Positions 4,624-47,300 of a DNA stretch of 64,000 nucleotides are shown one piece after another. The notes under the pieces were generated by a model. It was not told the DNA's origin. It did no database searches and saw only the letters and a program-made list of their open reading frames with translations. Source of the DNA: Beroe forskalii (taxonomy: Eukaryota; Ctenophora; Nuda; Beroida; Beroidae); assembly GCA_011033025.1 (NCBI GenBank), contig WFMF01000452.1:62001-126000 (forward strand). The letters are read 5' to 3'. Each line of letters begins with the position of its first letter. Positions within the stretch are counted from its first letter, which is position 1. A program made the translations under genes and the position numbers.

Positions 4624-7600
4624 ATGGACGGTCGGTACTCTACTTTGGACCAGAACGGAAAGATCCAGGCCTATTACATATGGATTGATGGATCTGGCCA
4701 GAATGTGAGGTGAGCTTTTTGAGTAATTGGGAAACGATCAGTCAACCGAACTGTAACCGAACCGTAACCAAAGAACCGGTTAACAGGAACTTTTTGCCAA
4801 ACCGTAACCGGATTAATTGTCAAACTAGGACGATTGACCTTATCTCAATCATTTCTTTGAAAACTCATCTGACTGGGGTAAAACTAGGACGATTGACCTT
4901 ATCTCAATCATTTCTTTAAACACTTCTCTTACAGGGGTAAAACTAGGACGATTGACCGGGCGGTCTCGTCAGTGGATGAGCTGCCCGAGTGGAACTTCGA
5001 CGGAAGCAGCACCAACCAATCAACAGGAGAGAACAGTGATGTGTACCTCAAACCTGTCAGGATATTCCGGTAGGTGGTGTGTGTGCGCGCAATTCACTTA
5101 TCATACTATCATACAATTCTTGTCAAAATTCTATCATACAATTCTGTAGAATTTTACTCTATTAGATATCTTATCATTTCCACATTTTCCGTATCCTAGT
5201 CTTCAGCCTTTCTGCCGAAAGTGCAGTATTAAGACGCCTCCTCTCCCAGAATTTCTGTCGAATTTTAAACGTTTTTTAATTATGACGCCCCCTTTCTCCT
5301 CCCAGAGACCCCTTCCGACGAGGTAACAACATCCTGGTGATGTGTGAGTGCTATGCTCCGGATGATAACCCTCATCCGACCAACAAGAGACACGAGTGTA
5401 ACCTCCTCATGGAACGATACAAGGACCAAAAACCCTGGTGAGTCAGCTGTCACGTGATCATACACTTCCCACATCACGTGATCATACACTTCCCACATCA
5501 CGTGATCATACACTTCCCACATCACGTGATCATACACTTCCCATTCAACATTATAGTTAGCCTGGGACATTACATTTCTTTTGGAGTAGAAAAAATTACA
5601 AAAACCCTGGTGAGAGTCATTTGTATCGTGATCTACTAGTACTAAGAAGGGGGCGGATTCTCGAGAGATCTGTCCCCAAGTGTTGGAGAATCTGCCCTGA
5701 GGGGCAGGCACTCCTCTGCCAGGGGCGTTGCCAGATTTCTGAAAAGGAGGCTGCGAGTTACATTCGAAACCTGTTTAATGTTTTTATTTTGCTTGGCTCA
5801 AAGCTTTCATTGTAACAAAATTAACAAATTGTAACAAAATTAACAAAATTTTCGTTATTTCTGTCCAAAAAGGGGAGGCAGCCGCCTGTGTTTCTTTCTC
5901 CCTGGCTACGCCCCTGTCCTCTGCATATGGGAGACTGTGGGTTAGGGGCGAGACGTTAGTCAAGTGATCACACACTGGTGTGCCGTTTTTAAAGTGATCT
6001 TACACTGGCGTGACACACACTGGCGTGACACACGCTGGCGTGACACACGCTGGCGTGACACACGCTGGCGTGACACACACTGGCGTGACACACACTGGCG
6101 TGACACACGCTGGCGTGACACACACTGGCGTGATGACACACTGGCGTGACACACACTGGCGTGACACACGCTGGCGTGACACACACTGGCGTGACACACG
6201 CTGGCGTGACACACACTGGCGTGATGACACACTGGCGTGACACACGCTGGCGTGACACACACTGGCGTGATCACACACTGGCGTGACACACACTGGCGTG
6301 ACACGCACTGGCGTGACACACGCTGGCGTGATCACACACTGGCGTGACACACACTGGCGTGACACACACTGGCGTGATCACACACTGGCGTGACACACAC
6401 TGGCGTGACACACACTGGCGTGACACACACTGGCGTGACACACGCTGGCGTGACACACACTGGCGTGACACACACTGGCGTGATCACACACTGGCGTGAC
6501 ACACACTGGCGTGACAAAACGAATTGTTAGAATATTCAAGCATTTAACAGGATTCTGTGGGGTTATGCAGTCATTCCAATCAACTTAGGAATGGGTTATA
6601 TCCTGAATATCCTAAAATTGCCTCAAATACCCGGCCATAATTATGCGCATTGAATTTAGTGGTAATTTCAGATAGTTTTGGGGTGCAGATTGCTCAATCC
6701 TGGGATCATATAATGTCTCATGCAAAGCTCAGTAGGTTTCTTTTCTTTCGAAAAGTGGCCTGGGATCCATTAATTTGAGTAAGAAGTGCCTGGTTTTACC
6801 CTGGTTTGACTAAATTCAAACACAGGGAAATGTCACGGCAGGTTTGGGAATGGAGCAGGAATAAAACAGCTAGTTTAGGAATCCCATATTCCCTATATGA
6901 TTCCACTGGGAGACGTGTGGTTAAATTATTCTGGGGACTGAAATTTTGAGGGGGTTCGAATATTTCGTTCCACATAAATTCAAATTGAAACACATCGATC
7001 TAAGTCTTTATTAATAGTTTCATAAACTCGTTCCACATAAATATATATCTCGCAAGGTACATAGCGGAGGCATATTTTTAAAATATTCTTTCCATAAAGT
7101 AGTTAAATGATATTGGCAAAAAACAACTGACAAAAATAAATCCACCGTCTGCCATGGACGGTTTTTACATCCATTTGATTCAAGCTGTAACCCACTCTAC
7201 CACTCAGGTTTGGTATTGAGCAGGAGTACACAATGTTTGACAAGAGTGGCACTCATCCCCTCGGCTGGCCGCAGCATGGCTTCCCTGGCCCCCAGGTTTG
7301 TTAGAACCATGATTGTAGGGTTTTCACTCTCGTCTTCATTGAAGCCAATTTCACTCTACAGTGTTAACTATGAACTCATTTCTTGTCATGTTGATTAATT
7401 TGCTTCGTGTAAGATGTCGGAGGAAAGATGATGTATTTCATCAATTTGTTGAAGTTCATCTTATCACATTCCCGCTCAATTTCCTTCGTGGATGAAATAG
7501 GAGATGGTGGGTATAACAGGTTGCTCATATTTTCATCTATTTCTTCCATTTTATCAGTCCTTTTCCACCATTTCTTCCCCCGTTTACACACCGCCCTACC

Positions 7601-9226
7601 TCAGGGACCGTACTACTGCGGGGTAGGAGCTAACAGGGTCAGTGGCCGAGACATCGTGGAGGCCCACTACCGGGCATGTCTCTATGCGGGCATCAAGATA
7701 GCTGGCTCCAACGCAGAAGTCATGCCCTCCCAGGTAAAGGAATTACTTTATAGGAGCCTCTGAAATGAAGGAGAATGTCGGAAACTATGACATATTTGAT
7801 GGACCTAAATTACGTTTTTTGTTTAACGAACTAACCACTGAAATGCATCAAAATCTCAGCAAAACAGAGCCTATTGAAGCTAAACCCCCTTATTTCAGTG
7901 GGAGTACCAGGTTGGACCGTGCGAGGGAATAGAGATGGGCGACCACCTCTGGGTGTCTCGGTACATTCTGTGTCGAGTGGCGGAGGACTTTGACGTGGTC
8001 ATCAGCTTCGATCCCAAACCCATCCCTGGTGACAACTGGAATGGTGCTGGGTGCCACACTAATATCAGGTGAAGACTGAAGACACACAGGTTATTTCCTG
8101 GGTCGACATTGTAATTTCTTGTGCTGTACTAGGAATATTGCCTTTTCTAGAGACCTTTGCCCTTTACCTTCTCAAACAATTCTTTTCCTTAACCTCAAGA
8201 AAAAAGAATTTCCACTTTCCGGTTACATACTTTCCTACTTAGTTTTATAATTTCTGCATTTCAGTACGGAGGCAATGAGGAAGCCAGGAGGAATTGGTCA
8301 GATCGTGAAAGCAATAGAGTCCATGAGTCTGAAGCACAAGGAGCACATAGCTGACTACGACCCCAGCAAGGGGATTGATAACGCAAGGAGGCTCAATGGG
8401 CACTGCGAGACAGCATCGTAAGTAACTCGAAATACATGATCATTTGCTTCGATTGATCATTAATCATGGTCCGCTGAAAGTTGAGATCAACATTTGATAA
8501 TCGACTCAATCACAAAAGTATCATGTGAACTATAAGACGAAAATTAAATATTGCCAAAATTTGGTGTAGTTTTTGTTTTTAATAGCCGTTCTCTCTACTG
8601 CAAATAAAAGGCTTTTACTGTTTTAAAAGCTTTACAATTACTGTTTTAAAGGCCTTTCAAAGGCTGTTTCAAAATCTTTTACTGTTCCATTTTGACGCAT
8701 TTCAATTTTGATGTATTTCAATTTGATTTATTTCAGGATCCACGACTTTAGCTACGGTGTCGCCAACAGGAAGACCAGCATCAGGATACCCCGTCAAGTG
8801 GAGAAGGAGGGCTACGGATACTTCGAGGTGAGGACTCACAGTCACAGTGATTGTTTACAGCACAGTGAAAGGGACAGTTAGAACTGCACTTTGCGCGTCT
8901 TTTGTGTGCGCGGCTTAAGTTTGCGCAGCGTATAGGCATATGAATAACATGTTTGTACGCCGCGCAAACGTAGGACGTGCACCTAAATTAAGAGTAATAT
9001 CAAAGGCGCGCGAACTGCAGTTCAAATCATCACCGTAATACTTTATACAGTACATACGCGGTTTCAGAAAATGAGTTCCTGATATTGAACTTTCTTTCGA
9101 CTTTCAACGTATTCAACTTTCCTACTCAACTATTCTTCCCTCTCCCAGGACAGGAGACCGGCCAGCAACTGCGACCCGTACGCCGTAACGTGTCGTATCA
9201 TCAAGAGTATCTGTGAAGATGAGTAG
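4624..9226 (+). CDS. GLUL: glutamine synthetase (glutamate-ammonia ligase), 9 exons
   Basis: ATP-dependent ligation of ammonium to glutamate; animal type II enzyme, decameric and normally cytosolic. Exons: 4624-4709, 4935-5069, 5306-5437, 7208-7295, 7605-7733, 7899-8068, 8265-8417, 8737-8827, 9149-9226. All junctions are GT-AG and phases agree, giving 353 aa plus stop (vertebrate enzyme 373 aa). Visible motifs in order: QAYYIWIDG and [12 protein letters not shown] (beta-grasp), FGIEQEYT (catalytic Glu pair), [34 protein letters not shown] (nucleotide/glutamate site), [10 protein letters not shown] and [14 protein letters not shown] (substrate Arg and Glu). The ATG at 4624 fits the family start. 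The frame stays open upstream to an acceptor-like CTTCCTAG at about 4600, so a further 5' exon is possible. Oddities: the exon 2 acceptor is triplicated, and intron 3 holds two minisatellites. Confidence 0.97.
4821..4960 (+). repeat. three tandem copies of the exon 2 start of glutamine synthetase
   Basis: The block (GGGGTA)AAACTAGGACGATTGACC occurs at about 4821-4839, 4874-4897 and 4934-4957, and the first two copies are followed by the same TTATCTCAATCATTTCTTT spacer. Only the last copy continues into real exon 2 and has the proper CTTACAG acceptor. The upstream copies are exon fragments inside intron 1. Confidence 0.9.
5451..5544 (+). repeat. 24-bp minisatellite in glutamine synthetase intron 3
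   Basis: Four near-perfect copies of CACGTGATCATACACTTCCC plus ACAT, starting 13 bases after the exon 3 donor. About 60 bases further on (5593-5612) the exon end itself (ACAAAAACCCTGGTGAG) is repeated, so the whole block derives from the exon 3 donor region. Confidence 0.9.
5964..6516 (+). repeat. 15-bp minisatellite, about 35 copies, in glutamine synthetase intron 3
   Basis: Tandem array of TGACACACACTGGCG with sparse variants (ACACGC, or GATCAC/GATGAC in place of GACACAC). Because 15 is a multiple of 3, all frames on both strands stay open and give false repeat peptides. It is intronic and I do not call any of it coding. Confidence 0.97.
8877..9027. mobile_element. MITE with GAACTGCA terminal inverted repeats in glutamine synthetase intron 8
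   Basis: Left end GAACTGCACTTTGCGCG and right end CGCGCGAACTGCAGTTC are inverted copies, and the interior holds TGTGTGCGCGGCTTAAG. The same family is better preserved at 12343-12512. There is no room for a transposase, so it is non-autonomous. Confidence 0.75.
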
Positions 9227-10980
9227 TACGACCAGCGACCACACCCCAAACCTAAGATATTATCGAGTGGGGCCCTCCAGCGTTCATCCACGATACATCT
9301 AGAAGAAAAATCTAGAATATAAATCTAGAATATGAATCTAGAATATGATCTAGAATTTAAATCTAGACTATATTATCAAGTTAGAACAGCTAACTAGAAC
9401 ATCTAGTTAGAACAGCTAGAACATTGACTTTAGACTTAGCCCGCCAGCTATGTACTGTGTGCAGCGATCAAGAGAATTCTTAATGTGCCGTGACATCAGG
9501 CTCAATTTATTCTATCTTATAATTTGAGGATGAAAGTATAGGATCTCTAAATTTGCGCCGCAATCGCAACCTCCTTTAAATACCCAATCAACAGCGGATT
9601 GTTCGGTTGAAAATGCCATATTGAATATTCAAATGTGAATTTTGAATCATTATAATCCCCTGAATTAATATTTGACTCTCCAGAAGTTTACCAGTCTGAT
9701 ATTACTCTGTCCGAGCTTTCAACCAAATATTCGGTTCCTTGGCTCGACACACACCGTCGAGAATTATTTGAAAAAAAAACTTTTCACTTTTCGTGCTGTA
9801 CAACCGCCTCGACTTCGTCTCAAAGTGAGAAGGCATTTGTCATAGATATTGCTTAGTTTTCACTTTTCAATTAACTTACGCTTCAAAATATATTCTAACT
9901 GCTTAACCGGTAGGTGCAAAGAAAAATTATTTTCCCATCATTGATTTCACCCCTTGGAAATGGAATTCAGTAACAATTAATCACTCCGCAGTGACTAATT
10001 ATCCTCCCCCTTAAATGATTTTGGAAATTTTTCAATATAAATGTTTAAATTCCCATCTTGCTCAAAATTACTTTAGAATGGCCTTTTTGTTCCAGCTCCC
10101 ACCTACATTCATTCGACAGATTTTGAAATCCTCATCCCTGTAATCAGGCGATGTAAAGTCTTAGAATAGGTAGACACTTGTTATCTTGCAAGTGTCTGTA
10201 TTTGAGTCGCAGTAACGCCTGTGAACTGCAGACCTGTGTTAAACTGACAAGTTTTAATGTGATTTATACACTCAGTCACCGCTGCTAAATGATACTCTGT
10301 TTATGATGAGGAGGAGGATACTTTCTTGCCTTTTCTATGTACATTGTTTCCTGGCTCCTTTCTACCATTGTATTTAATATATACACCCCCGGTATTGAAT
10401 GAGTTGGCCAGGTTTAAATCGGACTTTATTATTGTAAGTTTAAGGAGAGTTTGAGGAGCCGCTCCGTTGATTTTATTTTGAAATTGAAACGAGTGTCATT
10501 CAGAATTCTGCTGACTCGGGTGCCCAGTTTTATTGGCCAAAATGGCAATTTTATCTACATATCCCCATATCCTAAGATTTCACCTCGAAAGAAATTGCAT
10601 CCCCAGCTAAAAAGTCAGCTATTTCATTGCCACGAGATATATCTTGATTATTTGATTGTGACCAGCCATACTCCGATGTACAATTATTTTTTTGGTTCGC
10701 GTTTTAAAAATCGCTTGGGTTTCAAAGTGAGCGTGAGCTCATTATCTTTCAAATTTAATACTAATAGGTTTTTATTGGTCGTGATATTTTGGCTAATGTG
10801 CATAGTATAGTCCATACAAATTATAGCCAAAACCACGTCTTGTTGAAGTAATAATTGATCTATTTTCGATAGAAATTAGAATCTCAATTATTAGTATTTG
10901 TAGGAAGTCTTTAATTTCTTCAAATAGAAGTTCCTTCAGCTCATTGTAACACCAACGCAGGTGTCGCGACTGTATGATAA
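9227..10980. other. 3' flank of glutamine synthetase
   Basis: Probably the 3' UTR followed by intergenic DNA. An XbaI-like ATCTAGAATAT unit is repeated at 9296-9420. A plus-strand open frame of 119 codons (10451-10810) resembles nothing known and has no splice context. I see no clear AATAAA soon after the stop. Confidence 0.45.
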
Positions 10981-10987
10981 CTAACCT

Positions 10988-11082
10988 GAATTTTGCCGAC
11001 GGCAAAATTCAAGATAATTTGATAAAGAACGGCAAAATTTGTCGTTCTCTATCAAAATCGATTTGATAGAGAACGAAAGTAG
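10988..11082. repeat. two adjacent hairpins
   Basis: GAATTTTGCCGACGGCAAAATTC (23 bases, 10989-11011) is an almost perfect palindrome. It is followed by CGTTCTCTATCAAA, a six-base loop ATCGAT, and TTGATAGAGAACG. The pair could be a relic of a foldback element; no host role is evident. Confidence 0.6.
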
Positions 11083-11324
11083 TTGCTTTCAATTTCATAA
11101 ATTTTTAATTCTCTGAGTCACTGAAGGAATTTCTGCGTACTATCTTAGGGTATTCACTTAGGATTTCCACATAGGATTTATTTGATATATCTATTTATGT
11201 TCAGTTAGGCATATATAGGAAGACTTGAATATGTACCGTTATTTTAAATTTGAATTTGTGTCGCGAGTTCGATTTAAATGGGAATCGTTCTGAAATTTAA
11301 GAGTCGCGCAACACCACAAATAAT

Positions 11325-11425
11325 ATTTAAGACTACGTACTGTCAAATCAGTATCACGTACGAATGGTGGTCGTGTGGAAATTTCAGAAGGCGTTCTCAG
11401 AACTGACCGTGACATCTTTATCTAC
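11325..11425. repeat. copy of a dispersed CGTACG-hairpin repeat (copy 1 of 5)
   Basis: Contains TACGTACTGTCAAATCAGTATCACGTACG, an inverted repeat with a central TCAAATCAG. It is followed by the flanking words GGTGGTCGTGTGG, TTTCAGAAG and GACATCTTT that also follow the copies at 27372-27545 and 37325-37470. Confidence 0.6.
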
Positions 11426-11429
11426 GTTA

Positions 11430-12340: not shown

Positions 12341-12342
12341 GA

Positions 12343-12512
12343 TTCGAACTGCAGTTTGCGCGTCTTTTGTGTGCGCGGCTTATGTTTGCACGTTTTACAG
12401 ATGATAAGACAAATACAATGGCATATTATGGTAATCATATTATGAATAACATGTCTCTACTCTGTACGTCGCGCACACAGATTCAAAAGACGCGCAAAGT
12501 GCAGTTCGAACT
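12343..12512. mobile_element. MITE with 26-bp terminal inverted repeats
   Basis: Terminal inverted repeats TTCGAACTGCAGTTTGCGCG(TCTTTT) and its reverse complement agree at 25 of 26 positions. The interior is AT-rich with TGTGTGCGCGGCTTATG. Same family as 8877-9027. The clean ends suggest this is the younger of the two. Confidence 0.85.
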
Positions 12513-12748: not shown

Positions 12749-12759
12749 GTTGGGGAGCA

Positions 12760-21830: not shown

Positions 21831-24800
21831 ATGGCGGCGAGTCATGGTGGTGGGGATCACACCAAATGCCACACCAAGTGTGCTGCACGCCACATCAAGT
21901 GTGATTCACGCCCCAGCGGGTGTGATTCACGCCCCGAGGGGTGTGATAACCGTCAGATTTCACGCCACTGGTGGCTGCATGGATTACTTTGCCTTATTCT
22001 CCTTACCTGCAGGTTATTATCTTTTTGTCGAATCTCAATTCCGATCTTTTTTAATTCTTCCTTTAGGTATCATTATTATAGGGTTTGTTAACTTTAGTGC
22101 ATCTAGTATCTACTGCAGTAAGTACTACTAAATCAGCCCATCACAACACATCACTGCACCTCAACACAACACCGTATATCAGCACATCACAGCACATCAG
22201 CACACCACCGTACATCAGCACATCACAGCACATCACAGCACATCAGCACATCACCATAAAGCATCACATCACCACATCACAAACACAGTACAGCATCTAA
22301 CTCTAGTTCCTGTACACAGACCGGTCGACGCCCGGACCCTGAACTCGAGATCAGTGCGGTCCCTGACGGAACAACTCCAACTACACAGCATCAACTGGGA
22401 GGCAAGTAACACACAAACTTATAAATTCAAATACAGATTCTTTTTTCACTCAGATTGTCGAGAGGTCATTGAGCCCCTGCAATGTGTCGTGTATCTAATA
22501 AAAAAAACTTAGGCCCCAAACTATGCAATGTAAGTCACTAATTTCTAGGGACCCATTAGATTCTAGTAACGGATTGTCCCAGATTGCACCTGTTTTTTGT
22601 CGAATTGCGTAAATCTGGTAAACTTCTGGATTTCTTAGGATTACTCTTAATGACGGTGGTTTTAAATCCAGGACGTGCCAACTGAGACCTTCGTTCTGGT
22701 TGATTCAGAGTTCTATGTGAATCACAACACTTCCCACTTCAACTACACTGGATACAACTCATTCGAACCATTCAAGAGGTGAGATTTGAAAGATTTGAAC
22801 CAATCAAAAGGGGGGATTTCAACATTTTGAGCCAATCTTAAGGTGGTATTTGAATTGTTTTAACAAATCAAAAGTTGATATTCGAACAGTTTGAGCCAAT
22901 AGAAAGTGTGATTTGAAAAATTTATACCAAACAGAGGTTAAAATTTGAACAATTTAAACCAATTAGGAAGTAAACATTTCACGTTACTTTATAAGATATA
23001 ATTTAAGTCAACTCGAAAGAAGTCATTTACGATGAATCTTACGCTCATTATCAATCACGCGTCGAGACGTCGCGGTACGAACTACTTTACATTGATTTTG
23101 AAGAAAAGTCTGACAAAATACGAAATCACTGAATAGATCAATTATCACTCCAAAAGGGATGGTTCACATACTACGTAACCCAGTAATCAGTTAGGCGGTG
23201 GTTGTCGAGGGGGCGTGGGTCAATATTGTCCAGAAATTTTTACGTAATAACATTTGAACCATAATTTCAGTGAGATGTACCGCCTACAAGAGAAATTCCC
23301 TGACTTTGTGACCGTGGAAGTGATTGGGAAGACACACGAGGGAAGGTAAGCTGGTACCATTCTACAATTAGCGTGGCTCATTTTGTCCTTGATAAATTAC
23401 TTAATCCGTAGATTTTGGATTTCTGCGAGCTTCGTTTAATACCGAATCTTTTTCGCGATTTCAAAGAATTGTATTCAAAATGTCAAGTGTGTTGTTGTTG
23501 TTCCTTATTGGCGTGCAGATATTTGCTTGGTCTTTCAAAATTTAACTGAATTCCAGGGACTTGCTGGTGATGCACATTAACAAGAATAACAGTGAGGATG
23601 TTGTGTTTCTGGGAAGTCTGGTCCACGCTCGAGAGTGGATCACGGGGTGTGTTACCATGGAGATAATCAATAAGGTAATTAGCGTGTTGTCATGGAGATA
23701 ATCAATAAGGTAATTAGTGTGTTGTCATGGTGATAATTAATAAGGTTATTAGTGTGTTACTATGGAGACAATTAATAAGGTAATCTGCTACAAATTTTAG
23801 GACACATTTATAAATATTTCCGCATCAACTTAACTTCTTAACTTATAAATTTTTACATTATTCAGTTACTAAATGGCTCGCCTGACAATGAAGAAGAAGC
23901 TGATCAGATTGAGCTCCTATTGAACAGCTTCCACTTCATTATAATGCCTGTCTATAACCCAGATGGCTACGAGTATACCTTCACAACGGTAAGAAATAGA
24001 GAATTCCTACCACACGATTTATATCGATGATAGATGGCAAAAATTAATTTTGCAATTTTGGGAAATGCAATGTCATCAAGCATTATCCACGATCCTCGAG
24101 TTATAGTGCATAGCTATGAATATTTTCGAGTTTTACTTTCAGAAAGATTTAACGTAGCTGATAAAACTACGCTGAATTAAAGTTAATTCTGCTTTCTAGA
24201 CAGCAAATCGAAGATTTCGCACAACTTTTTGATGAACTTAATTTTGATTTTTGAATAACATTGGTAACTGTCAACTTTTTCTCCTAAACCATACTTTCCC
24301 GAACAGAACAGACTGTGGCGTAAGAACCGGGAACCCATTCCCGATTATGAGTGTAAAGGAACGGATGTCAACCGGAACTTCCTCTACGGATACAGTCCAT
24401 GTAAGTTACAGTGCTGGTTCGTTATGAGGATATGATATATCAAAAAATCATGGTTTTAGTGGTTTTCGTATAAGGCATTTAACGATGATTGTTAAGCAAC
24501 TAAAAATGCCTCAACGATTTTATTCGATTTAATCATTCCTTAACCTCATCTTTATCTCCCAGACATTAATTAATACCGTGCAATTGTTATATGTCCATTA
24601 GTCGATACCATCAATTAATAACCACTTACAATCAACAAATTACCACTAAAAACCTATGATTTACTCATGTATGGACAACGAGGAAGTAGCTATAACCATT
24701 TTATTCTTACCTCTTACTCTCTTAGAACCCTCTGAAGTTTCACAAACTCAAACTGGTCCAAAGATATGAGATAACAAGGGAGAAGATAACCATTTACCAT

Positions 24801-26805
24801 TTAACCTCTCATCAACTCGCATACAGATAACGAGGAAGTAGATAACGCCACAGAACGAGGCCCTTGCTCAGATTCTTATCCGGGAAGACGGTCCCTTTCA
24901 ACCAACGAGGCAAAGGTACGGATCTCACGACACTTCACTTTACGAAACTTTATCTAAAGACACTTCACTTCACGGCACTTTATCTCAAGACACTTCACCT
25001 CACGGCACTTCACCTCACGATCCTTCACCTCACGGCACTTTATCTCAAGACACTTCACCTCACGGCACTTAATCTCAAGACACTTCACTTCACCTCACGG
25101 CACTTTATTTCACGACACTTCACCTCACGGCACTTTATCTCACGACACTTCACCTCATTTTTCGTTTTTTTGAATTAAACAGATATACAATTGTGTGCAA
25201 AATATATTTCAACAATCATCAATATTCATTATCCAATGACATAATTTCCGAAGTTCCTAATTTTGTACTTGATTTCGAAGAACGTTATTTGAGAAAAGCG
25301 TCTGTGGATTGTGGAGCCTACGATCCTATGCACCTTGTGCACGTAGTTCGCTTAATACGGGATAATTTGTGGTCTTTTCGCGCTTAATTAATTTATTCGT
25401 CGGAGCCTCATGAGAAATTCATCACTGCCTACACAATTATTATGATGATGCTACAATTACGCAATGGCAAGTTGCTTAGGTTCATAATTATGTATTATAG
25501 AACTATAGAAGAACTTGTAAGATTGATGTCTCTACACCAGGGTGTTAATTAAGCTTTGTTTATAAAATAACAATATAAAACTTGCCCGAATTATGAAATT
25601 ATCATCAATACAGGTTATATCAAACTTTTTTATATGGCAATTGACAAGTGATGTTTAGTAACAAGTAGAAAATGCAAACAGTGGTATTACACACAAGATG
25701 CCGGGGGGTTGATAAAGCTTTAAACTTTTTACGAGTTAGGAATCAAACTGAATTTAGCACCGCCCACCTTATTTTGCGCTTGCACAAGAGAGTGTTTTCA
25801 AACACAAGGAAATATCTCTGAATACTCATTTTACCCCGCAGGCCATCCACAGACTGATGACGAAGTATAAGCACAACATGCGCTACTATGCGGACTGGCA
25901 CAGCTACGGCAACGACTTCGTCTATTCGTACGGAGACACCGAGCAACAGCCCAAAAATAAGGACCAGTTGGTGAGTGGGCGGTTTCGAAGTGGCCGATTG
26001 GTGACATTTTTATGGCAATTTTCCAGGATTATTGGATTCTCAAAAAAATATTTTACTCCATACATTCATTTCAATCTATCAATGCAGTTTTAATAGAATT
26101 TTCCGGATTTTATAAAATCTTTGTTCCCCACTTCAGCACAGATACGGCTCCAATGCAATTCACATACTGGGGAATATGACAAATCAGCTGTGGAAAACAG
26201 GGACTGTTGCTAATGTCATCTGTGAGTACTCCCCTTCTGATTGTAACTCAAATTTAACTTAGTTTCTGTGTCGAATTTATTCTGATCGTCAGATTTCACT
26301 AATTGTTTCTTGTTCAACTGGTACTTTTTACTGATATTCATTATTTCCCCCAATTTGGCAGGTTTTGACCGTTGTAATTTCAGATAAATGCCGAGGAATA
26401 ATGGTAGATCATGTGCACTTCTACATTACACCCATAGCCTTCACAATCGAGGTATGGACGAAAAATTGAATTATTTGAACGTCCAAAGATGTACGATTTG
26501 GTTAAGATTATCATTCGTTTTCGAATCCGTAGAATTCCGCTGAAAACCCTGATAAGCATACTTGTATGCGTGGTTGTATGCACTATACCAAAATGCCATC
26601 CCTGATGCTAGACTCCCAACACACACGTTTTCAGGTGGGACCAGAAGAAACTAATTTCCGAGCACCGGACAGCATGGTGCCCACCTACACAGCATCCCAG
26701 TGGTCTGCACTACTCTCCAACCTGCTCCTGCTCAGAGAAGAGCTCCATTCTCAGGAGTACCAGATCGAGAAAACAACGAACTGGAGACTTACCAACATGG
26801 TGTGA
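21831..26805 (+). CDS. M14 carboxypeptidase A-like zinc protease, paralogue 1, 12 exons
   Basis: Secreted-type metallocarboxypeptidase with propeptide, predicted to trim C-terminal residues. Exons: 21831-22012 (tentative), 22320-22401, 22672-22778, 23271-23345, 23557-23674, 23866-23988, 24307-24400, 24827-24915, 25842-25970, 26137-26221, 26384-26451, 26635-26805; 440 aa plus stop, phases consistent. Propeptide: SVRSLTEQLQLHSINWE onward. Catalytic set present: HAREW (zinc His and Glu), LWRKNRE and DVNRNF (substrate Arg/Asn-Arg), DWHSYGN (third zinc His), VIYKC (Tyr248 equivalent), AFTIE (catalytic Glu270 equivalent). The intron after 22401 starts GC (AG|GCAAGT), a GC-AG intron shared with paralogue 2. 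The first exon is the weak point: it gives an odd Cys/His-rich head before the hydrophobic WWLHGLLCLILLTC, a possible signal sequence, but its phase fits exactly. Confidence 0.92.
22135..22290 (+). repeat. CACATCA-rich low-complexity tract
   Basis: CAGCACATCACAGCACATCAGCAC-type repeats immediately upstream of the propeptide exon of carboxypeptidase paralogue 1. A similar shorter tract (28205-28262) precedes the same exon of paralogue 2, so it marks the left end of the duplicated segment. Confidence 0.85.
23156..23262. mobile_element. short TTCACATA-type MITE in the carboxypeptidase intron (paralogue 1)
   Basis: Starts GATGGTTCACATACTACGTAAC and ends ...TTTGAACCAT. The counterpart in paralogue 2 (30841-30946) has the better-preserved ends TATGGTTCACATAGTAC / TACTATGTGAACCATA. 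Its right end lies a few bases from the acceptor of the next exon, supplying part of the ATAATTTCAG context in both paralogues. Confidence 0.7.
23649..23795 (+). repeat. exon end and donor repeated about four times in the intron
   Basis: The exon 5 end (GTTACCATGGAGATAATCAATAAG|GTAATTAG) is followed by further copies of GTGTTGTCATGGAGATAATCAATAAG(GTAATTAG), each with its own GT. Paralogue 2 has a single copy, so the amplification happened after the gene duplication, or was lost there. Confidence 0.9.
24935..25156 (+). repeat. CACTTCACCTCACGGCACTTTATCTCAAGA minisatellite (paralogue 1)
   Basis: An approximately 30-bp unit, CACTTCACCTCACGGCACTT plus TATCTCAAGA, about seven copies, begins about 20 bases after the donor of exon 8. 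The homologous intron of paralogue 2 carries two larger blocks of the same unit (32936-33105, 33341-33645). Confidence 0.9.
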
Positions 26806-30946: not shown

Positions 30947-32639
30947 ATTTCAGTGAGATGTACCGACTACAAGAGAAATTCCCAGACTTTGTGACCGTGG
31001 AAGTGATTGGGAAAACACACGAGGGAAGGTAAGCTGGAACCATTCTACAATTAGCGTGGCTGATTTTGTCCTTGATAAATTAGATAATCCGTAGATTTTA
31101 GATTTCTGTGAGCTTCGTACAGTGCCGAATGTTTTTCGTGATTTCATGGAATTTTATTCAAAATGTCAAGTGTGTTGTTGTTGTTCCTTATTGGTGTGCA
31201 GATATTTGCTTGATTTTTTAAAATTTAATTGTTGTGAATTCCAGGGATTTGCTGGTGATGCATATTAACAAGAATAACAGCGAAGATGTCGTGTTTCTGG
31301 GAAGTCTGGTCCACGCTCGAGAGTGGATCACGGGGTGTGTTACCATGGAGATAATCAATAAGGTAATTAGCGTGTAATCTGCTACAAATTTTAGGACACA
31401 TCTATAAATATTTTGGAGCTAAGTATTTATTTCCGCATCAACTTAACTTCTTAACTTATAAATTTTCACATTATTCAGTTACTAAATGGCTCGCCTGACA
31501 ATGAAGAAGAAGCTGATCAGATTGAGCTCCTATTGAACAGCTTCCACTTCATTATAATGCCTGTCTATAACCCAGATGGCTACGAGTATACCTTCACAAC
31601 GGTAAGAAATAGAGAATTTCTACCACACGATTTATATCGATGATAGAGGGCAAAAATTAATTTTGCAATTTTGGGAAATGCTATGTCATCAAGCATTATC
31701 CACGATCCTTTTGGTGCATAGCTATGAATATTTTCGAGTTTCACTTTCAGAAAGATTTAACGTAACTGAAAAAACTACGCTGAATTAAAGTTAATTCTGC
31801 TTTCTAGACAGCAAATCGAAGATTTTGCACAACTTTTTGATGAATTTTATTTTTGATTTTTGAATAACTTCGGTCACTGTCAGTATAACCTACTGTCAGC
31901 TTTTTCCCTGAAACAATGCTTTCCCGAACAGAACAGACTGTGGCGTAAGAACCGGGAACCCATTCCCGATTATGAGTGTAAAGGAACGGATGTCAACCGG
32001 AACTTCCTCTACGGATACAGTCCATGTAAGTTACATTCAGCGTGTCATGAATTTAAGCAGATTGTTCCGATTTTCGACAACCTAGATTCACGTTATATAA
32101 TTTGATATGACTCATTTAAGCATTTTGTAGCAGTTGGTGCCTTATGATTCAAATTGACAAGAATGAGCAATGAATCTACTCACGTGTTTCAAGACTATAG
32201 TAAACCATTCTTCTTATTTGTCTGTCTTGCGTCTTGCTCGTCAATCTCCCATGAGATTTGCTCTCTTACTTAACCTGGTAAAAATTTCACTTCAGCATCA
32301 ATATCTATGTTCCGAAGGGGGAGGATATGATATATCATGGTTTTAGTATAAGGCATTTAACGATGATTGTTAAGCAACTAAAAATGCCTCGACGATTTAA
32401 TGATTCCTTAACATCATCTTTATCTCCCAGACATTAATTAATACTGTGCAATTGTAAGATGTCCAATATTCGATACCATCAATTAATAACCACTTAAAAT
32501 CAACAAATTATCACTAAAAACCTCTGATTTACTCATGTATGGACAACGAGGAAGTAACTATAACCATTTTATTCTTACCTCTTACTCTCTTAGAACCCTC
32601 TGAAGTTTCACAAACTGACACTGGTCCAAAGATATGAGA

Positions 32640-32850
32640 TAACAAGGAAGTTGATAACCACTGAACTCTTTACCTCTCATCTCACTCAGTACAGATAACG
32701 AGGAAGTAGATAACCACTGAACTCTTTACCTCTCATTATTAACTCGCATACAGATAACGAGGAAGTAGATTAAAACTGAAGAGTGAAGTTGATTACCATT
32801 TAACCTCTCATCAACTCGCATACAGATAACGAGGAAGTAGATAACGCCAC
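32640..32850 (+). repeat. start of carboxypeptidase exon repeated three times (paralogue 2)
   Basis: TACAGATAACGAGGAAGTAGAT, which in paralogue 1 is the acceptor plus first bases of the exon at 24827, occurs at about 32691, 32751 and 32821. Each copy is preceded by CTCTTTACCTCTCAT- or CATTTAACCTCTCAT-like pyrimidine tracts. Only the third continues into the exon (32826). Confidence 0.9.
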
Positions 32851-32935
32851 AGAACGAGGCCCATGCTCAGATTCTTATCCGGGAAGACGGTCTCTTTCAA
32901 CCAACGAGGCTAAGGTACGGATCTCACGACGCTTC

Positions 32936-33645
32936 ACTGCACCGTGCACGGCACTTTCTCTCATGACACTTCACCTCACGGCACTTTATCTCAAGACACT
33001 TCACCTCACGGCACTTTATCTCACGACACTTCACCTCACGGCACTTTATGTCAAGACACTTCACCTCACGGCACTTTATCTCAAGACACTTCACCTCACG
33101 CATGGGACTACACGGCCCCTGAAATTTTCCTGAAATTCACCCTTTTTCAGAGTAAAATCAATGAATAAAACATTATTTTAGTACTATTTTTAAGCAAAAT
33201 AGTAAAAATTATGGCTATGAGAAATGAAAATTTGCCTATGTAAATTTTGGCCCCCCGTAGTTTTCAAAAGGCCCCCCCTAGAAAAAATCTAGGGGGGCCT
33301 TGGCCCCCACTAGCTCGAAAAAGTGTGTAATGGCATGACCTCACGGCACTTTATCTCAAGACACTTCACCTCACGGCACTTTATCTCAAGACACTTCACT
33401 TCACGGCACTTTATCTCATGACACTTCACCTCACGGCACTCTATGTCAAGACACTTCACCTCACGGCACTTTATCTCAAGACACTTCACCTCATGGCACT
33501 TTATCTCAAGACACTTCACCTCACGGCACTTTATCTCAAGACACTTCACCTCATGGCACTTTATCTCAAGACATTTCACTTCACGGCACTTTATCTCAAG
33601 ACACTTCACCTCATGGCACTTTATCTCAAGACACTTCACTTCACG
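32936..33645 (+). repeat. CACTTCACCTCACGGCACTTTATCTCAAGA minisatellite (paralogue 2), interrupted
   Basis: Two blocks (about 32936-33105 and 33341-33645) of the unit seen in paralogue 1. They are split by about 235 bp of unrelated DNA containing a strong hairpin, AGGCCCCCCCTAG...CTAGGGGGGCCT (about 33268-33300). The long Lys/Glu/Cys- or His/Ser-rich frames over these blocks are repeat artefacts. Confidence 0.9.
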
Positions 33646-33724
33646 TCACTTTTTCGTCTTTTCGAATTAAACAGATATTCAATTGTTTGCAAAATATATT
33701 TCAATGATCATCAATATTCATTAT

Positions 33725-34136
33725 GCACCTTCCAGGCGTGTTTATGCTATGGATTCAAAAACCCTATAGGCACCAGGGTACCGTGCGCAATAAATTATTG
33801 CGCACTGTAGTGCCGAAATCTTGATTTATTACGCACTGTAGGTCATAATAATTTATTATGGTGCAGTAGAACAGTGCGTAATAATTTATTTCGCACAGTT
33901 GAGCAAACTGCACCTTCAAATCTTAATTTAAAACATTTCCTTGCGTTTGAAAATATTGCCATTTTTTCGAGTAAAGTCAGTGCATAATTCAGTTTAATAA
34001 CTCGTAAAAATTACTAAACTCAGCATTAAAAAACCTCGGCCTTCGGCCTCGGTTTTTCAATGCCATATTACACACTCGGGCCTCCGGCCCTCGTGTGTAA
34101 TATGACGTTTAGTAATTATTACTCGTTACTAAACCC
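33725..34136. mobile_element. 412-bp insertion with 8-bp target duplication and double hairpin
   Basis: TTCATTAT flanks both sides (33717-33724 and 34137-34144). Paralogue 1 has the single empty site (about 25226). The right half contains two abutting perfect hairpins: AAAAACCTCGGCCTTCGGCC (TCGGTTTTT) at about 34029-34058, and ATATTACACACTCGGGCC...CTCGTGTGTAATAT at about 34064-34104. The left half repeats GTGCGTAATAAATTATT-like words. An 8-bp duplication is typical of hAT-type insertion, but no terminal inverted repeats are obvious. Confidence 0.75.
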
Positions 34137-35780
34137 TTCATTATTCATTGACATAATTTCCGAAGTTCCAAATTGTGTACTTCATTTCGAAGAACTTTAT
34201 TCGAGAAAAGCGTCTGTGGATTGTGGAGCCTACGATCCTATGCACCTTGTGCACGTAGTTCGCTTAATACGGGATAATTTATGGTCTTTTCGCGCTTAAT
34301 TAATTTATTCGTCGGAGCCTCATGAGAAATTCATCACTGCCTGTACAATTATTATGATGATGCTGAAATTACGCAATGGCAAGTTGCTTAGGTTCATAAT
34401 TATGTATGATAGAAGAACTTGTAAGATTGCAGGTGTCTCTACACCTGGGTACTTAGCCTTTGTTAATTAACCTTTGTTTATAAAATAACAATGTAAAACT
34501 TGTCCGAGTAATGAATATCATCAATACAGGCTATATCAAACTGTTGTAAATGGCAATTGGCAAGTGATGCTTAGTAACAAGTAGAAAATGCAAACAGTGG
34601 TATTACACACAAGTGGTCGGAGGCCGAGGTTTTAAGGGTTAATAAAGCTTTATACTTTTTACGAGTTAGAAATTAAACTGAATTTAGCACCGACTGGCGA
34701 CTAGGTACCTTATTTTGCGTTTGCAAAAGAGTGACGAGTGTTTTCAAACACAAGGAAATACCTCTGAATATCTCCTTTACTCCGCAGGCCATCCACAGAC
34801 TGATGACGAAGTATAAGCACAACATGCGCTACTATGCGGACTGGCACAGCTACGGCAACGACTTCGTCTATTCGTACGGAGACACCGAGCAACAGCCGAA
34901 AAACAAGGACCAGTTGGTGAGTGGGCGCTGACCTGATACGTCTTATCATGTTCATTGATCGACCAAGGAGTGATTTTGTGACCGAGGCCGAGTAAAACGT
35001 GATTAATCTCGTTAATACTCGTCCAAAACTGCAGTCCTCGGTAAACCATTGATCATGTTTCGAAGCGGTCGTTTGATGACTCTAGTTGGAAATATTATTG
35101 GTTAAAAATCATTTTTATGGTAACTTTCCAGGATCATTGGAGAATGGAGATTGCAAAATAGATTCTGAAACGCATTTTTCAATTTTTATTTAAATTTCTA
35201 TCGAATTTTCGGTATTCTATTATAAACTTTGTTCCCCACTTCAGCACAGATATGGTTCCAATGCAATTCACATATTAGGGAATATGACAAATCAGTTATG
35301 GAAAACAGGAACTGTCGCTAATGTCATCTATAAATGCCCCCCTTCTCATTGTAACTCAAATTTAACTTCGTTTCTGCTTTGAAATTATTCTGATCGTCAG
35401 ATTTCACTAATTGTTTCTTGTTCAACAGGTACTTTTACTGATGTTCATTATTTCGCCAATTTGACAGGTTTTGACTGTTGTAATTTCAGATAAATGCCGA
35501 GGAATAATGGTAGATCACGTGCACTTCTACATTACACCCATAGCCTTCACAATCGAGGTATGGACGAAAAAACAAATTGAATGATATTTGAACGTCCAAT
35601 GATATTGTTAAGATCTTCAATCGTTTTCGAATCCGTTGAATTCCCTGTGGATGTTGCGCCACTGCGCCAGCGCGAAAACCCTGATAAGCATGCTTGTATG
35701 CAAAAATTCCATCCCTGATGCTAGACTCCCGACACGTTTTCAGGTGGGACCAGAAGAAACTAATTTCCGAGCCCCGGACA

Positions 35781-36775
35781 GCATGGTGCCCACCTACACC
35801 GCTTCACAGTGGTCGGCCCTGCTCTCCAACCTGCTCCTGCTCAGAGAGGAGCTCCATTCTCAGGAGTACCAGATCGAGAAAACAACGAACTGGAGACTTA
35901 CTAACATGGTGTGACAACATGGTGTCACAACATGGTGTCACATGGACAGCATGGTGCCCACATACACCGCCTCCCAGTGGTCCGCCCTGCTCTCCAACCT
36001 GCTCCTGCTCAGGGAGGAGCTCCATTCTCAGGAGTACCAGATCGAGAAAACAACGAACTGGAGACTCACCAACATGGTATGACAACATGGTGTCACAACA
36101 TGGTGTCACATGGACAGCATGGTGCCCACCTACACCGCCTCCCAGTGGTCCGCCCTGCTCTCCAACCTGCTCCTGCTCAGAGAAGAGCTCCATTCTCAGG
36201 AGTACCAGATCGAGAAAACAACGAACTGGAGACTTACCAACATGGTGTGATATGTGGTGTCACATGGTGTGACACCCGGTGTCACCTGGTGTCACATGGA
36301 CAGCATGGTGCCCATTTACACCGCCTCTCAGTGGTCTGCCCTGCTCTCCAACCTGCTCCTGCTCAGGGAGGAACTCCATTCTCAGGAGTACCAGATCGAG
36401 AAAACAACGAACTGGAGACTCACCAACATGGTGTGAACTGACAACATGGTGTGACAGTGACACTCGGGCTCAAAATGGGTTGATCGGCGGTGAGATGGCG
36501 TAACAAGGTGGTAACATGGTGTGAGGTGACATGGAGTGAGGGTGAGGGTGAGACATGGTGCCAACTGCCAAATGGTGTCAGCTGGTGTGACACCCAGTGT
36601 CACAGGGTGTCACACCCGGTGTCACCTGGTGTCACATGGACAGCATGGTGCCCACCTACACCGCCCCCCAGTGGTCTGCCCTGCTCTCCAACCTGCTCCT
36701 GCTCAGGGAGGAACTCCACTCTCAGGAGTACCAGATCGAGAAAACAACGAACTGGAGACTTACCAACATGGTGTG
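35781..36775 (+). repeat. five tandem copies of the carboxypeptidase last exon (paralogue 2)
   Basis: The coding stretch from GACAGCATGGTGCCCAC to ACCAACATGGT(G/A)TGA is present at about 35781-35914, 35946-36082, 36115-36250, 36299-36436 and 36639-36775. The repeats lack the exon's acceptor and first about 36 bases. Spacers are ACATGGTGTCACA simple repeats. All copies keep the frame and the stop, and differ by a few substitutions. Paralogue 1 has one copy. Confidence 0.95.
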
Positions 36776-37324
36776 ATATGTGGTGTCACATGGTGTGACA
36801 ACATGGTGTCACAACATGGTGTCACAGTGAGACATGGTGTCACAATATGGTTTCACATGGTGTAAGGGTGAGACATGGTGTCAAATGGTGTGCTATGGTG
36901 CCACAAAAAGTCACATGGTTTGACTTTGACGGTGTCACAACCATGTTACACCGCCAAACCCTCGCCCTTCGAGTATCCAAAGGTGGCCACGATAGGAGCA
37001 TGTATTATAATATTCATTTATTTTAAAGCACCTTCGGGTTCTGTTGCAAGTTCCGTCTATAGCCATTATAGGAGCTATAACCACGGTCGTAATGGGCAAT
37101 TGTGCTTTGAATTTAGGAAATAGTACAGATGACATGGATAAATTTTTTTGCGATTTAGTTTAATATTTATTTTGAATTTTAATGATTTTCATGTCTTTGC
37201 TTCGATAAATTATTGTAATGTTTTTTGAATAGTTTAATGTTTCTTGTTACACGTATTGATGACGTTGAGGACGAAGTGGGCGAGACTTGGTTATTTTTAA
37301 CCACGCCCTGATTTTCCATTACGC

Positions 37325-41397: not shown

Positions 41398-44300
41398 TCA
41401 CCCGTGTAAATACCTAACACACTTCTTGGTCCCACACCTGCATTCCACAGAGAGCCGGTGATCTGCTCTACTTTCCTCCTCTTCCAGGATACGGTCTATC
41501 CGGTAGTTGAACGTCAGTTCTTCTCCTGCCTAAATAAGAGGTATAATTAGAGGTATAATTAGGAGCATACAAAGTCGGGTAGTTGAACGTCAGTTCTTCT
41601 CCTGCCTGAGAGAGGAGTGATTAAAAAGTCAGGTAGTTGAAAGTGCCTGAAAATCGATACTACTACCGTCTCGCCTGACTGTACATGTCTAGTTAACCGT
41701 GTTCACCACTTCTACTACCAAAAGGGGGACGGATCTTCGAGAGATCCAGACAGAAACCCCGACAGGGACCTCTCGCTACAACTCTACAAGTGGTCCCAGT
41801 TGCCAGGGCTACTGTGGATGATTCCCGTACCTCCCCAGATGAAAATTGATAATATTTCCACTTAAGATTTGACCCTAAGATTTCCACTTAAGATTTGACC
41901 ACTTAATATTTGACCTTTCAAACGCAACTTCCATTTGTATAAAACTCCTTAGATCATAGTGGTGTTATTATGCAATACTAATGATTGAGTATTATGCGAA
42001 ATCTTACCACTTTATTAGTCCATAAATTGCAGCAAACAAAGGGCTAATCAAAAACAAAGGACATCGTCAAACTGCTATTATAATAGGAGGGCAGAGTAAT
42101 ACTAAAAACAATGATTTTATAAAAACAATGGTTTTATAAAAACAATGGTTTTATAAAAACAATGGATTGAAGTAAGTGCCTTGACTTGACAAAATGGTTT
42201 GGAGTATCATTTATTCATCTATTAACTATTGGATTTGCTATTGCGACATATGTGATAATACAGCCAAGATTTAGATTATTGCGTTACTACTGAACACGTC
42301 ACTATGTAGTACTATCATACCAAAATCTGTTTGAATAGAAACAGAAATAGATGAAACAGAAAGATAATGCCGAGTCCATCTCCGAGAAAAGAATTAAGGT
42401 GTATTATTTCAGGTCAGAACGGAACAGGCAGACAATGTCCTGCTCTGTGGCCATTAGGGTCTATTTCTTAATGTTTTATATCATACCCGAATGTTCTTGG
42501 CAGCGAAGAGGCAGATGTGGGGTAGTCTCAGGTCGAGGTTGGATATCCAACACGAGTACACAACTAGGTTGGGGTCGCACTGAAAGAGTAAACTCTTATC
42601 AATAGGAAATATTGTGGATCAAGGAGCTGAAATGTGGTATTCCCTCTTTCAAAGTGGTCATTAACTTGCAGTTTCATGGACAATCGTAAGGAGAAATTTA
42701 GCTCGCTGTCGCTTGAGCACTAAGAGCGAAACTTTGAACACTTTGATAAAATGTTATAAAGCTACACTGCAAAGAAGCATTAAAGTAAATCTACCAATAA
42801 CTCACGCTGTGGTTTATGAAATGTGAGGTATTCCCGTAAAAAGCAGCATCTATAGTGAATACCGCATCGTCATTAGATTGGTAGTCCAGATCGAACAGAT
42901 ACGTCAAGCCCTGCGCATCATACTCCCTGGAATTGTGACTATTTTTTCACTGTTTTAGTCATTTGTCGTTTTAGTCATTTTTCACTGTTTTAGTCACTTG
43001 TCAGTACTCACTATGTCAGTCATTTCAACTTACATAAATACATATTGCATGTTACTGTTTCTTCGAGAAAACCCATTAGGATGAACTGCATTAATATTTC
43101 TGTTTTCTAAATCTTTAGCGCTTACATGTTTCTATGTTTAATGTGTCAATGTCCAATGTAGAGTCTAAGAACACTTTGTGCCCCTTATTCAGACTTACAT
43201 GCCACGTTTTTCTGCCTCGTCGAAAGTAATAACCTCCCCAACGTACTCCACAACAAACGTTCCCTTCGGTATGTCTTGCAGGGTCTGGTGGGAAAGACAG
43301 AGTATGATAACTAAAGTCTCAATAGCTTTTTAGCGTGATTACATTGAAAGACTGAATTGGAATAAGATTGGATGGAATGAAAACCATCGTATGGGCTTGC
43401 TCCTCTTAAGGTAGAAACAAACAAATTAAACCCAATCACTTTAAAGTTTTAAAATTTACACACAAGTTAGATTAAAACAAACCTTCAGCCCCCATCCCTT
43501 ATCAGCCGTCTTGTAGATGGCAGTCTTGACTTGGCTGCCTCTTTGCACTATCCGATTTCCACAATCAGGCCCACATGAACACCGGGCATTGCATTCGTAG
43601 ATAGGAAGCCCGGGTTTCAGGACCAAACGACCTTTCTGGAGAGAAGAGAGGTATTAATTTAGAGGCAATATCTTCAAAATGTACCAAAAAACATGAAAAT
43701 ATGCCCCAAAATAAAATTTCATTGACTTGGACGGGCGCGGCTAGGACAAAAAACAATTATACGCGCGCATAACGCGCGCGACTTTTTCTGGACTCCAGTA
43801 AAATGTCATTCGGTTTCGCGCCTTCCATACAAGTTAAGGTGTTTAACACAATATGGCGGCAGAGATGACTGCCATTTTAGCACAAATGACTAACACACAA
43901 ATGAGGTCAAATGACTAACACTCCTAATGAGCACTTTAATTAAGAATCAAACTAACGTTGTTATATGGCGAGGCTGCGCCCCCTAAATGAGGACAGCACT
44001 CCACATCTGGGGATAGGCAACAATCCCGAACTCCAACCTCTCCAGAGCAGATACAACCTGACAAAAATAGGTTTATTCATGGCAGAAATAAGGTTTGGTA
44101 AGTGGCAAGCATTGCGTTAAAAAGTTACTAGTTAGGACTATGATCAAATAGGAGCTTAAGTCGAAATGACTTCATTAGGAAATGGCATCAATCGACCTAT
44201 AAGGGAATCGTCGCTGATGTGAACACCTTTCCCTGCAAATCTGTCTCGGACAAATGTGAAGTTGAGGGGCGGCAAGTTGAAATCAACCTTGTTTTCTACC

Positions 44301-47300
44301 TGAAAAATTAAATCAACGCTATTTTCAACCTGAAAAGTCACGGAAATTGGAAATTGATCCAAGTTTACCCAGTATTAAGTTGAAAGCTAATGTATTCAAA
44401 TGTACTCAAATGTACTCAAATTCTCAAATGAAGTATGACCTCAAATGTAATATGTACTCAAATGCACTACTTAAATGTAGCAGGTACTCAAATGTAATCT
44501 GAATACAACCAACCGTGACGGAGGGGAAGGAAGGACCCAATTCTTCTTTCACTTTGTGCGAATATTGCCTCAATAGTTTCCTGTACTGCCATTTGAAGGA
44601 TTTTGAGGAAAGCTCTGCGTTCAGTTGCCAAGCATGTGCCTAAAGGTGAAGGTTTTCCATTGCAATATAGGAAATTCTTTGAAGCAACAACAATTCAAAC
44701 ATTTTACTGATACTTAAAACCTTTTGATAGGTTGCATGTACAATATACATTGTACTGCACGTCACTCATGATTTAATTCACTTAATTGCTTAATTAATAT
44801 GCAAGTTGATTATATCAATACATTGCAAATATCAACGTTTATTTTCGCACACTTTATTAAAGAATCTAATCAAAGTACCATGGCTTACCTGGGAGCTGAT
44901 GGTGGAGATTTTCAGTGTCAATCTTTTCATCTTCAACTTGGTTGCCTTAAGTTCGTCACGAATGTCACTGATAATAGATTAGATAATTAAACAACCAAGA
45001 TAACGAGCACAAAACTTCTCAATACCAAGATACTTCCTGAAACCAGCTACAAATTCCTCAAGTCGTAAGTCAAGTCATATGTCAAGTCGTAGGTCAAGTC
45101 GTAACTCAAGTAGTAAGTCAAGTCGTAACCCAAGTCATAAGTCAAGTCGCAAGTCAAGTCGTAAGTCAAGTCGTAAATCGTAGGTCAATTCGTAAGTCAA
45201 GTCGTAAGTCAAGTCGTAAGTCAAGTGGTAAGTCAAGTCGTAAGTCAAGTCGTAAGTCAAATCGTTAGTCGAGTCGTAAGTCAAGTCAGAAGTCAATTCG
45301 TAAGTCAATTCGTAAGTCAAGTCGTTAGTCAAGTCGTAAGTCAAGTCAAGTCGTAAGTCAATTCGTAAGTCAAGCCGTAAGTCAATTCAAATCAAGTCGT
45401 AAGTCAAGTCAAGTCGTAAATTTAGTCGTGAGTCAAGTCGTAAGTCAATTCAAATCAAGTCGTATGTCAAGTCGTACGCAAGTCGTAATTTAAGTCGTAA
45501 GTCAAGACGTAAGTCAATTTGTAAGTCAAGTCGTACGTCAAGTCGTAAGTCAAGTCGTTAGCCAATTCGTAAGTCAAGTCGTAAGTCAATTCGTACGTCA
45601 AGTCGTAAGTCAAGTCGTTAGTCAATTCGTAAGTCAAGTCGTAAGTCAAGTCGTAAGTCAATTCGTAAGTTAAGTCGTTAGTCAAGTCGTAAGTCAATTC
45701 GTAAGTCAAATCGTAAGTGTCGTCGTAGGTCAATTCGTAAGTCAAGTCGTAAGTCAAGACGTAAGCCAATTCGTGAGTCAAGTCGTAAGTCAAGTTGTAA
45801 GTCAAACCGTAAGCCAAGTCAAGCCGTACGTCAAGTTGTAAGTCCAGTCAAATCAAGTCACGTCTTGAGTCAAGTTGTAATTCCAGTAAAATCAAGTCAA
45901 ATCACGTCAATTAAATTAAAGTCAAGTCGGAGTACCTGTTCCTCTCGACTGTGTTAAGGAGACTCTCCACGTAACTAAGCAGGAAGTGAGGAGAGCAGTT
46001 GAAGTTATCCTCTGGTTCCCACGAAGTGTACTTGTCACTGTAACCCGACCACTTCACTAAAAACCTGAACGTCTTCACTCCCTGAGGGGGTACAGCGATT
46101 ATTATAATCGCTGGGAACCGGACTCGGGTCGGTGGACACAAGGTTGGTGGACATGAGGTTGGTGGACACTAGCTTGGTGGACTCGAGCTTGGTGGTTGCG
46201 AGGTCCGCGATGGTAAACCAGGGTGGACGTGAGGTAGGCAAATCCCACAGGGTGGTCGCGTGGTCAAAAACACCTTATAAGCTTATAAAATTTTAGTGAC
46301 TATAAGTAAGTTGCAAGTTATTGAGTAAAATTCCACTAGAGTGGAGTAACTGACTTCAGACCGAACTGTGACACATAGCCTTACATGCCCCTCACATCAC
46401 CCTATTGTATACCCCTACACTCCCACTGTACGGTTTTCATTCTGAATGCCACCATCGTGTTCGACTGTTAACAGTTTTAAACCTAAAAATGTAAAAATCC
46501 CTATGGCTCGAATTGAAGTAAAACTCAAAAACACCTCCCTGAACCAGAACAGTTTTGTGTGTTAAGATCTTCTCTATTTCGAAGTAGATTCCTCGGGAGT
46601 TGTGTTTCTGGCTGGCTCTGCTCATTATCACGTAGTTCTTTTGTCTGCTTGTCGAGATGCTGTGTCTTAGGTTGTAAAACTCTGAAAATATTGAAGGCTT
46701 GAACTTTATTGATGTGTAAAATAATTGATTAAGTAGAATGAACGGCATATTGAAGTCTTTTAACTTTTTAACCAAGACAATAAAGTTCATATAAAGCTGT
46801 ATAACTTATTGGGAGACAGTTATCTCAGATGTTCTGCAGAAATCACCAAGAGTTGTCATTATGCTATCACGATATAATAGGAACTAACAACATGAAGCCC
46901 ATCCTAAACTATAGTTATGAAATCTTAACAATTATCCCTTAACAATTATCTTAACAATTAATATTAACAATTATCCCTTTAAAGAATTACCCTTATCCAA
47001 TTCCCACCATAACTTATGACTAAATGCTTCTTTTTAAAATCTTTTTTCAAACCCAAAGTTTATAAAGTATGATCTGGGGTTGTGTATGATGTTAGTTCCA
47101 TAAAAACCTGACCTTTATCTTTTGGAGGATCTGCAAATGCAGATGGAGGTTGCAAACAGGGTATCACAAGTTTCTTTGCAATAAGAACTGGAGGAACTTT
47201 CCTGGGTGCAATTAAATGATCAGCATTCCAAAAATATCTTTTATATAAATAAAAATCTCAACATCATAGTTTGAATTTGGTTTAAAAATTAAATTTAAAA

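Follow-up and report, generated by a model that had tools for sequence, protein, structure and literature searches.

Short tandem duplications that carry splice sites in the ctenophore Beroe forskalii, and the question of a bias towards exon edges

Are short tandem duplications drawn to the edges of exons, or do they merely cross them by chance? The question is raised by a 64,000-nucleotide stretch of Beroe forskalii DNA (contig WFMF01000452.1, positions 62,001 to 126,000; hereafter the window), which is part of a 141-kb contig in a genome of 216 Mb. In its genes for glutamine synthetase (GS), two M14 carboxypeptidases (CP1 and CP2) and a SUV39H-like protein, segments spanning a splice site recur in the adjoining intron. 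A first reading of this stretch, to which we refer as the original prediction, attributed the copies to one process biased to exon edges and proposed that such a process, if general, would make this genome a rapid generator of alternative splice sites. We find that splice sites have indeed been copied into introns in several unrelated genes; the same pattern is also seen in a GS paralog, a kelch gene, an EFR3 gene, a RecQ-like gene and two CCT3 genes. The independent data lean toward exon edges, but an edge bias is not established. With a probability of roughly 0.7, we favor ordinary local tandem duplication, common throughout the genome, which crosses exon edges by chance.

Splice-site copies in the window and elsewhere

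In the window, we modelled 67 splice edges by hand. The GS, CP1, CP2 and SUV39H models each form a continuous single reading frame without a stop codon, with one site per edge; their exon numbering differs from that used in the following (e.g. GS exon 3), which is taken from the original prediction. For six of the 67 edges, a local direct repeat covers the edge and has its other copy in the adjoining intron, although one of the six is a 16-bp non-tandem match and another has only two intron bases in the match. In the five stronger cases, the copies are spaced 30 to 76 bp apart. No local repeats with a score of at least 15 were found in 20 dinucleotide shuffles each of GS, CP1, SUV39H and EFR3, the last of these being a gene from outside the window.

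The GS gene (4597..9226, plus strand; 9 exons modelled, 354 aa) contains an array with a period of 59 (4822..4957; 2.3 copies, 92% match) across the edge 4934/4935, where an exon starts at 4935. The first 18 bp of this exon are present three times, and the intronic copy of the acceptor lacks the AG. At the donor of exon 3 (edge 5437), the segment 5427..5442 has an exact 16-bp copy at 5599..5614, as had been described; this copy lies 172 bp downstream, with an unrelated 24-bp array in between, and is not tandem. The donor array of CP1 (gene 23271..26805, plus strand, 9 exons modelled; array 23647..23784) has a period of 35 and 3.9 copies, and runs across the edge 23674. In CP2 (30954..35914, plus strand), the tandem paralog of CP1, about four copies, spaced by 56 to about 72 bp, make up an acceptor array (32637..32845) across the edge 32825, and an additional, older copy lies near 32543.

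The SUV39H-like gene is encoded on the minus strand (41398..46081) and includes two such acceptors. One is a 30-bp repeat (44280..44336), in which the edge at 44329 and a second acceptor at 44299 are both open in frame, as had been claimed. The other belongs to the last exon (41502..41607): here the acceptor and the first 28 bp of the exon are present in two copies (edge 41529, copy 41605) that share 30 identical bp, lie 76 bp apart and would shift the frame if the far site were used. By eye, a decayed third copy can be recognized upstream. Thus, the splice-site copies proposed for the GS acceptor, the CP1 donor, the CP2 acceptor and both SUV39H acceptors stand, whereas the last exon of CP2 has to be removed from the series. 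Its 168-bp units (35776..36776, plus strand) begin 32 bp inside the exon, which starts at 35744; they include no splice site, and each carries a stop codon.

The edge-crossing arrays are not isolated, but stand beside intronic, coding (53800-54069 and 58975-59368) and 3'-end (35776-36776) arrays. Altogether, tandem arrays make up 11.5% of the window and 15.8% of the 269,236 bases sampled. One minisatellite, with a 15/30-bp unit (CTCACGACACTTCAC-like), is found at 24922-25157 and at 32947-33652, in both places just inside a carboxypeptidase intron and next to the donor. Matches to it number at least 83 across the genome, on many contigs, and it therefore represents a dispersed family. A further peculiarity of CP2 is found at 35330-35331, where its donor reads AT in place of the GT of CP1; this gene may be failing or may be spliced in another way.

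In genes that had not been picked for copies at their edges, six arrays touch 10 of 236 splice edges. These are the GC donor of the GS paralog (L004, about 6007-6266; a 34-bp array that also contains an inverted copy), the acceptor of the kelch gene (L021, 2781-3014, minus strand; three copies), the donor of EFR3 (L020, 9479-9591, minus strand), a CCT3 donor (L027; three copies), a CCT3 acceptor (L026), of which only two exon bases are within the repeat, and a RecQ-like exon that has been triplicated together with its splice sites (L014, 7482-7980). The last case is a tandem exon duplication: the 45-bp exon is found at 7508-7552 and 7662-7706, and a third copy from 7906 has an altered donor, the position of which is read through in the prediction. 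At exon 4 of the GS paralog, where the donor is apparently GC, the exon end is repeated around a foldback in both direct and inverted orientation, which suggests template switching. Another GS copy (L005, 4940-6929) is missing most introns and has a break in its reading frame, resembling a retrocopy.

Regarding the gene assignments, Pfam detects Gln-synt_C on one GS exon and M14 in 5 of 10 carboxypeptidase pieces, in two of these just under the cut-off. The Pre-SET and SET exons of the SUV39H-like gene are matched just under the curated cut-offs, and its chromodomain-like exon was recognized by eye. Among 10 sample exons, eight have Pfam matches (Pre-SET, SET and BACK under curated cut-offs); those of TIMM44 and RecQ have none, and both names, like several others, rest on reading by eye. 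No tRNA or Rfam matches were obtained in the window at the thresholds of the tools.

Event counts at exon edges

To be counted as an event, a repeat had to be non-minisatellite and to have an offset of 20 to 260; it was then collapsed to one unit. The expectation is the chance that a unit of the given length crosses an edge under uniform placement, computed per gene. We tried scores from 14 to 30 and margins of 2 and 3, and quote score 18 and margin 2 by default. A base-coverage rotation test, which gave 6 of 67 window edges against 12.1 expected and thus no enrichment, was dropped for event counting, since long minisatellites dominate the coverage and inflate its expectation.

The window is unable to test its own pattern, because the original prediction looked where exons were recognizable and its cases were picked at edges. 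We therefore separately counted the genes that it had not listed. Of their 236 edges, all from the same genome, 164 belong to 12 genes located in C528:1-60000 and C780:463001-583000 (IQCA1-like, LDL-receptor-like, eEF2K, TIMM44-like, RecQ-like, the GS paralog, the kelch gene, EFR3 and a further four). Two inverted paralogs of the window contribute three edges each, and 7 CCT loci, among them one mutually paralogous pair, contribute 66. SKP1, FABP-like, FKRP-like, mucin-like and low-scoring predictions as well as first or doubtful CCT exons were excluded before counting, and L005, L012, L013, L032 and L033 were excluded entirely. Exon models outside the hand-modelled set were obtained with our own gene finder, which was trained on the window genes, so that splice scores within the window are circular. 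One edge of the GS paralog was placed too far by a single base; the counts are unaffected.

Over their whole spans, the unlisted genes contain 29 events, of which 6 cross an edge, compared with 4.73 expected (P 0.33); at score 15, it is 6 of 38, compared with 5.11 (P 0.40). Because one RecQ intron of 8.8 kb, which is rich in tandem repeats and may hide missed exons, inflates the whole-gene expectation, we added a count within 250 bp of edges. With placements inside exons barred, it yields 6 of 15 events against 3.65 expected (P 0.13). On these numbers, the proposed bias finds no backing over whole genes and an upward lean near edges, and, by our estimate, as few as six events would also be compatible with an edge bias of two- to threefold.

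Several other counts weigh against placement by chance. When placements inside exons are allowed, the same 6 of 15 unlisted events face an expectation of 2.68 (P 0.033), and P ranges from 0.033 to 0.065 across the zones and scores tried. The window itself, with its cases picked for edge position, gives 4 of 8 events against 1.02 expected (P 0.011), 6 of 12 against 1.34 at score 15 and margin 2 (P 0.0008), and, within 250 bp of edges, 4 of 7 against 1.46 (P 0.036) or, with exon-inside placements allowed, against 1.18 (P 0.017). Pooling all sets, the cases picked by the original prediction included, results in 10 of 37 against 5.75 (P 0.046), and in 12 of 50 against 6.44 at score 15 (P 0.018). 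Lastly, four tandem expansions with units of at least 30 bp distinguish the members of two paralog pairs, and all four cross an edge when the minisatellite is set aside; two of them lie outside the window, and two pass the tandem measure of our script, the other two being judged by eye.

In the explanation that we favor, short tandem duplications with units of roughly 20 to 200 bp would arise through microhomology-mediated repair or through slippage during replication, and the resulting arrays would lengthen by more slippage or by unequal exchange. They would land more or less evenly along genes, so that some units happen to span an exon edge. Such units would be tolerated: one complete site remains, and the surplus exon edge would, together with its splice signal, turn into intron.

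Paralogs and competing explanations

The direction of change can be approached through paralogs. CP1 shares 91% identity with CP2 over 3508 aligned bases, a figure that takes in the introns. The donor unit is present four times in CP1 and once in CP2, where GTGT flanks it on both sides. Of the CP acceptor array, two degenerate copies are recognizable by eye in CP1 (near 24673 and 24767); both genes have older members, and CP2 has gained additional copies. The array thus predates the duplication that gave rise to the two genes. Likewise, two CCT3-like genes outside the window are 89.5% identical over 1703 aligned bases, with the donor in three copies in one gene and the acceptor in about four in the other, each being single in the partner. 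At the single-copy acceptor, AGAA stands at either end of the segment that the partner has in repeated form. Because of the short microhomology at these two junctions with a single-copy partner (GTGT at the CP donor, AGAA in CCT3), we infer slippage or microhomology-mediated repair as the probable molecular mechanism. The comparisons would point to expansion of the CP1 donor and of both CCT3 sites; made between paralogs, they are also compatible with contraction.

Two further paralog pairs, the inverted pair in the window and the P450 gene ends, show no edge duplication. The former consists of inverted duplicate genes (51400-55700, minus strand, and 57300-61770, plus strand) that are 89% identical over 4176 aligned bases and whose clearest tandem difference is a 12/24-bp coding repeat of unequal length. 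The P450 gene ends (L032 and L033) lie in opposite orientation on one contig. They are nearly identical and differ mainly by short length changes, many of them in homopolymers; this pair is a recent duplicate that probably contains sequencing errors. It has had little time to diverge.

Outside RecQ, the condition of the copied sites can be judged from 23 copy comparisons. Counted by hand, 22 of the 23 retain AG, GT or GC, and 20 fall short of the gene's own site by no more than 3 bits, with one scoring 6 bits above it. The shift between copy and original is a multiple of three in only 6 of the 23 (also counted by hand), and thus there is no sign of selection for frame. Most comparisons differ by substitutions, and a few are identical. 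Taken together, the copies appear to be young and, as far as can be told from their sequences, largely neutral. The claim that alternative splice sites are generated at a high rate may thus be kept in terms of potential only.

An apparent excess at edges could also stem from a slower loss of likeness: with one exon part under selection, edge-crossing copies would stay visible for longer. We regard this as a serious possibility, if one with somewhat less than even odds. Its predicted direction is weakly seen in the mismatches, 24 in 434 bp of exon parts against 37 in 472 bp of intron parts (hand-summed, RecQ rows excluded), and the SUV39H acceptor at 41529 retains 28 identical exon bp next to a diverged intron part. 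However, the difference is small, and with the RecQ rows included, in which bases past the far end of the exon were counted as exon, exon (9.6%) and intron (8.6%) are alike.

A mutational process that is truly biased to exon edges, through breaks associated with transcription or with splicing, or through microhomology provided by the splice signals themselves, appears unlikely to us. It would be favored by the window counts, by the near-edge counts in unlisted genes, by the four expansions that all span edges, and by the repeat unit of CCT3a, which terminates at the acceptor (AG/AA). It is opposed by the whole-span count in the unlisted genes, by the way in which the window cases were picked, and by the two additional paralog pairs that show no edge duplication, even if one of these has had little time to acquire any. 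Duplications drawn two- to threefold to splice sites, as a local mutation hotspot that steadily makes spare sites, are unlikely to the same degree.

That the duplicated sites have been retained as useful alternative isoforms is improbable. The small loss in splice score and the in-frame 30-bp pair of SUV39H would agree with retention, but few shifts keep the frame, and the sites of copies as young as these appear to be need no selection to be intact. An assembly artefact from mis-joined reads is more improbable still: nothing direct speaks for it, with the homopolymer-rich length differences of the P450 pair suggesting some sequencing error, and it is at odds with the substitutions that separate most copies and with the members of the CP acceptor array common to two paralogous genes.

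Known cases and what the copies mean

Tandem arrays are said to have been described by Zhuo and colleagues in 2007 as a source of alternatively spliced introns and splice sites in humans.

Three published systems can be compared more closely. In a potato RdRp gene, a direct duplication took in an intron's 3' end together with the 5' part of the exon that follows, and the copy gave rise to a new intron whose splicing is supported by RNA (PMC4974935). As in several genes of Beroe, the acceptor, the pyrimidine tract and the exon start were copied, the copies differ by substitutions, and a second duplication inside the intron is likewise a shared feature. Unlike in potato, the copies in Beroe seem to lie within existing introns, affect several genes and are known from DNA alone. 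The novel introns of Drosophila similarly involve regional tandem duplication adjoining splice signals, but there the duplicated segment is coding sequence that contains a proto-splice site, and new intron positions result (PMC2891723). In the formation of stwintrons in Lipomyces, tandem donor copies provide the intron with a second 5' site; however, these copies span 4 to 7 nt, splicing intermediates were sequenced, and the authors invoke end joining (PMC7138796). By this comparison, the events in Beroe are of the same kind as the published boundary-crossing duplications and have taken place several times in one genome, with no sign of new introns.

Our findings do not yet amount to a new process. 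If duplication were in fact drawn to edges, splice sites would be a local mutation hotspot producing spare sites. In either case, alternative splicing and, occasionally, new introns can draw on duplicated splice sites as raw material, and well-dated cases of such duplications are described as few (PMC4974935). With recent copies beside splice sites and paralogs in both states, the genome of Beroe forskalii is a fair one in which to measure how often such copies originate, come into use and are lost.

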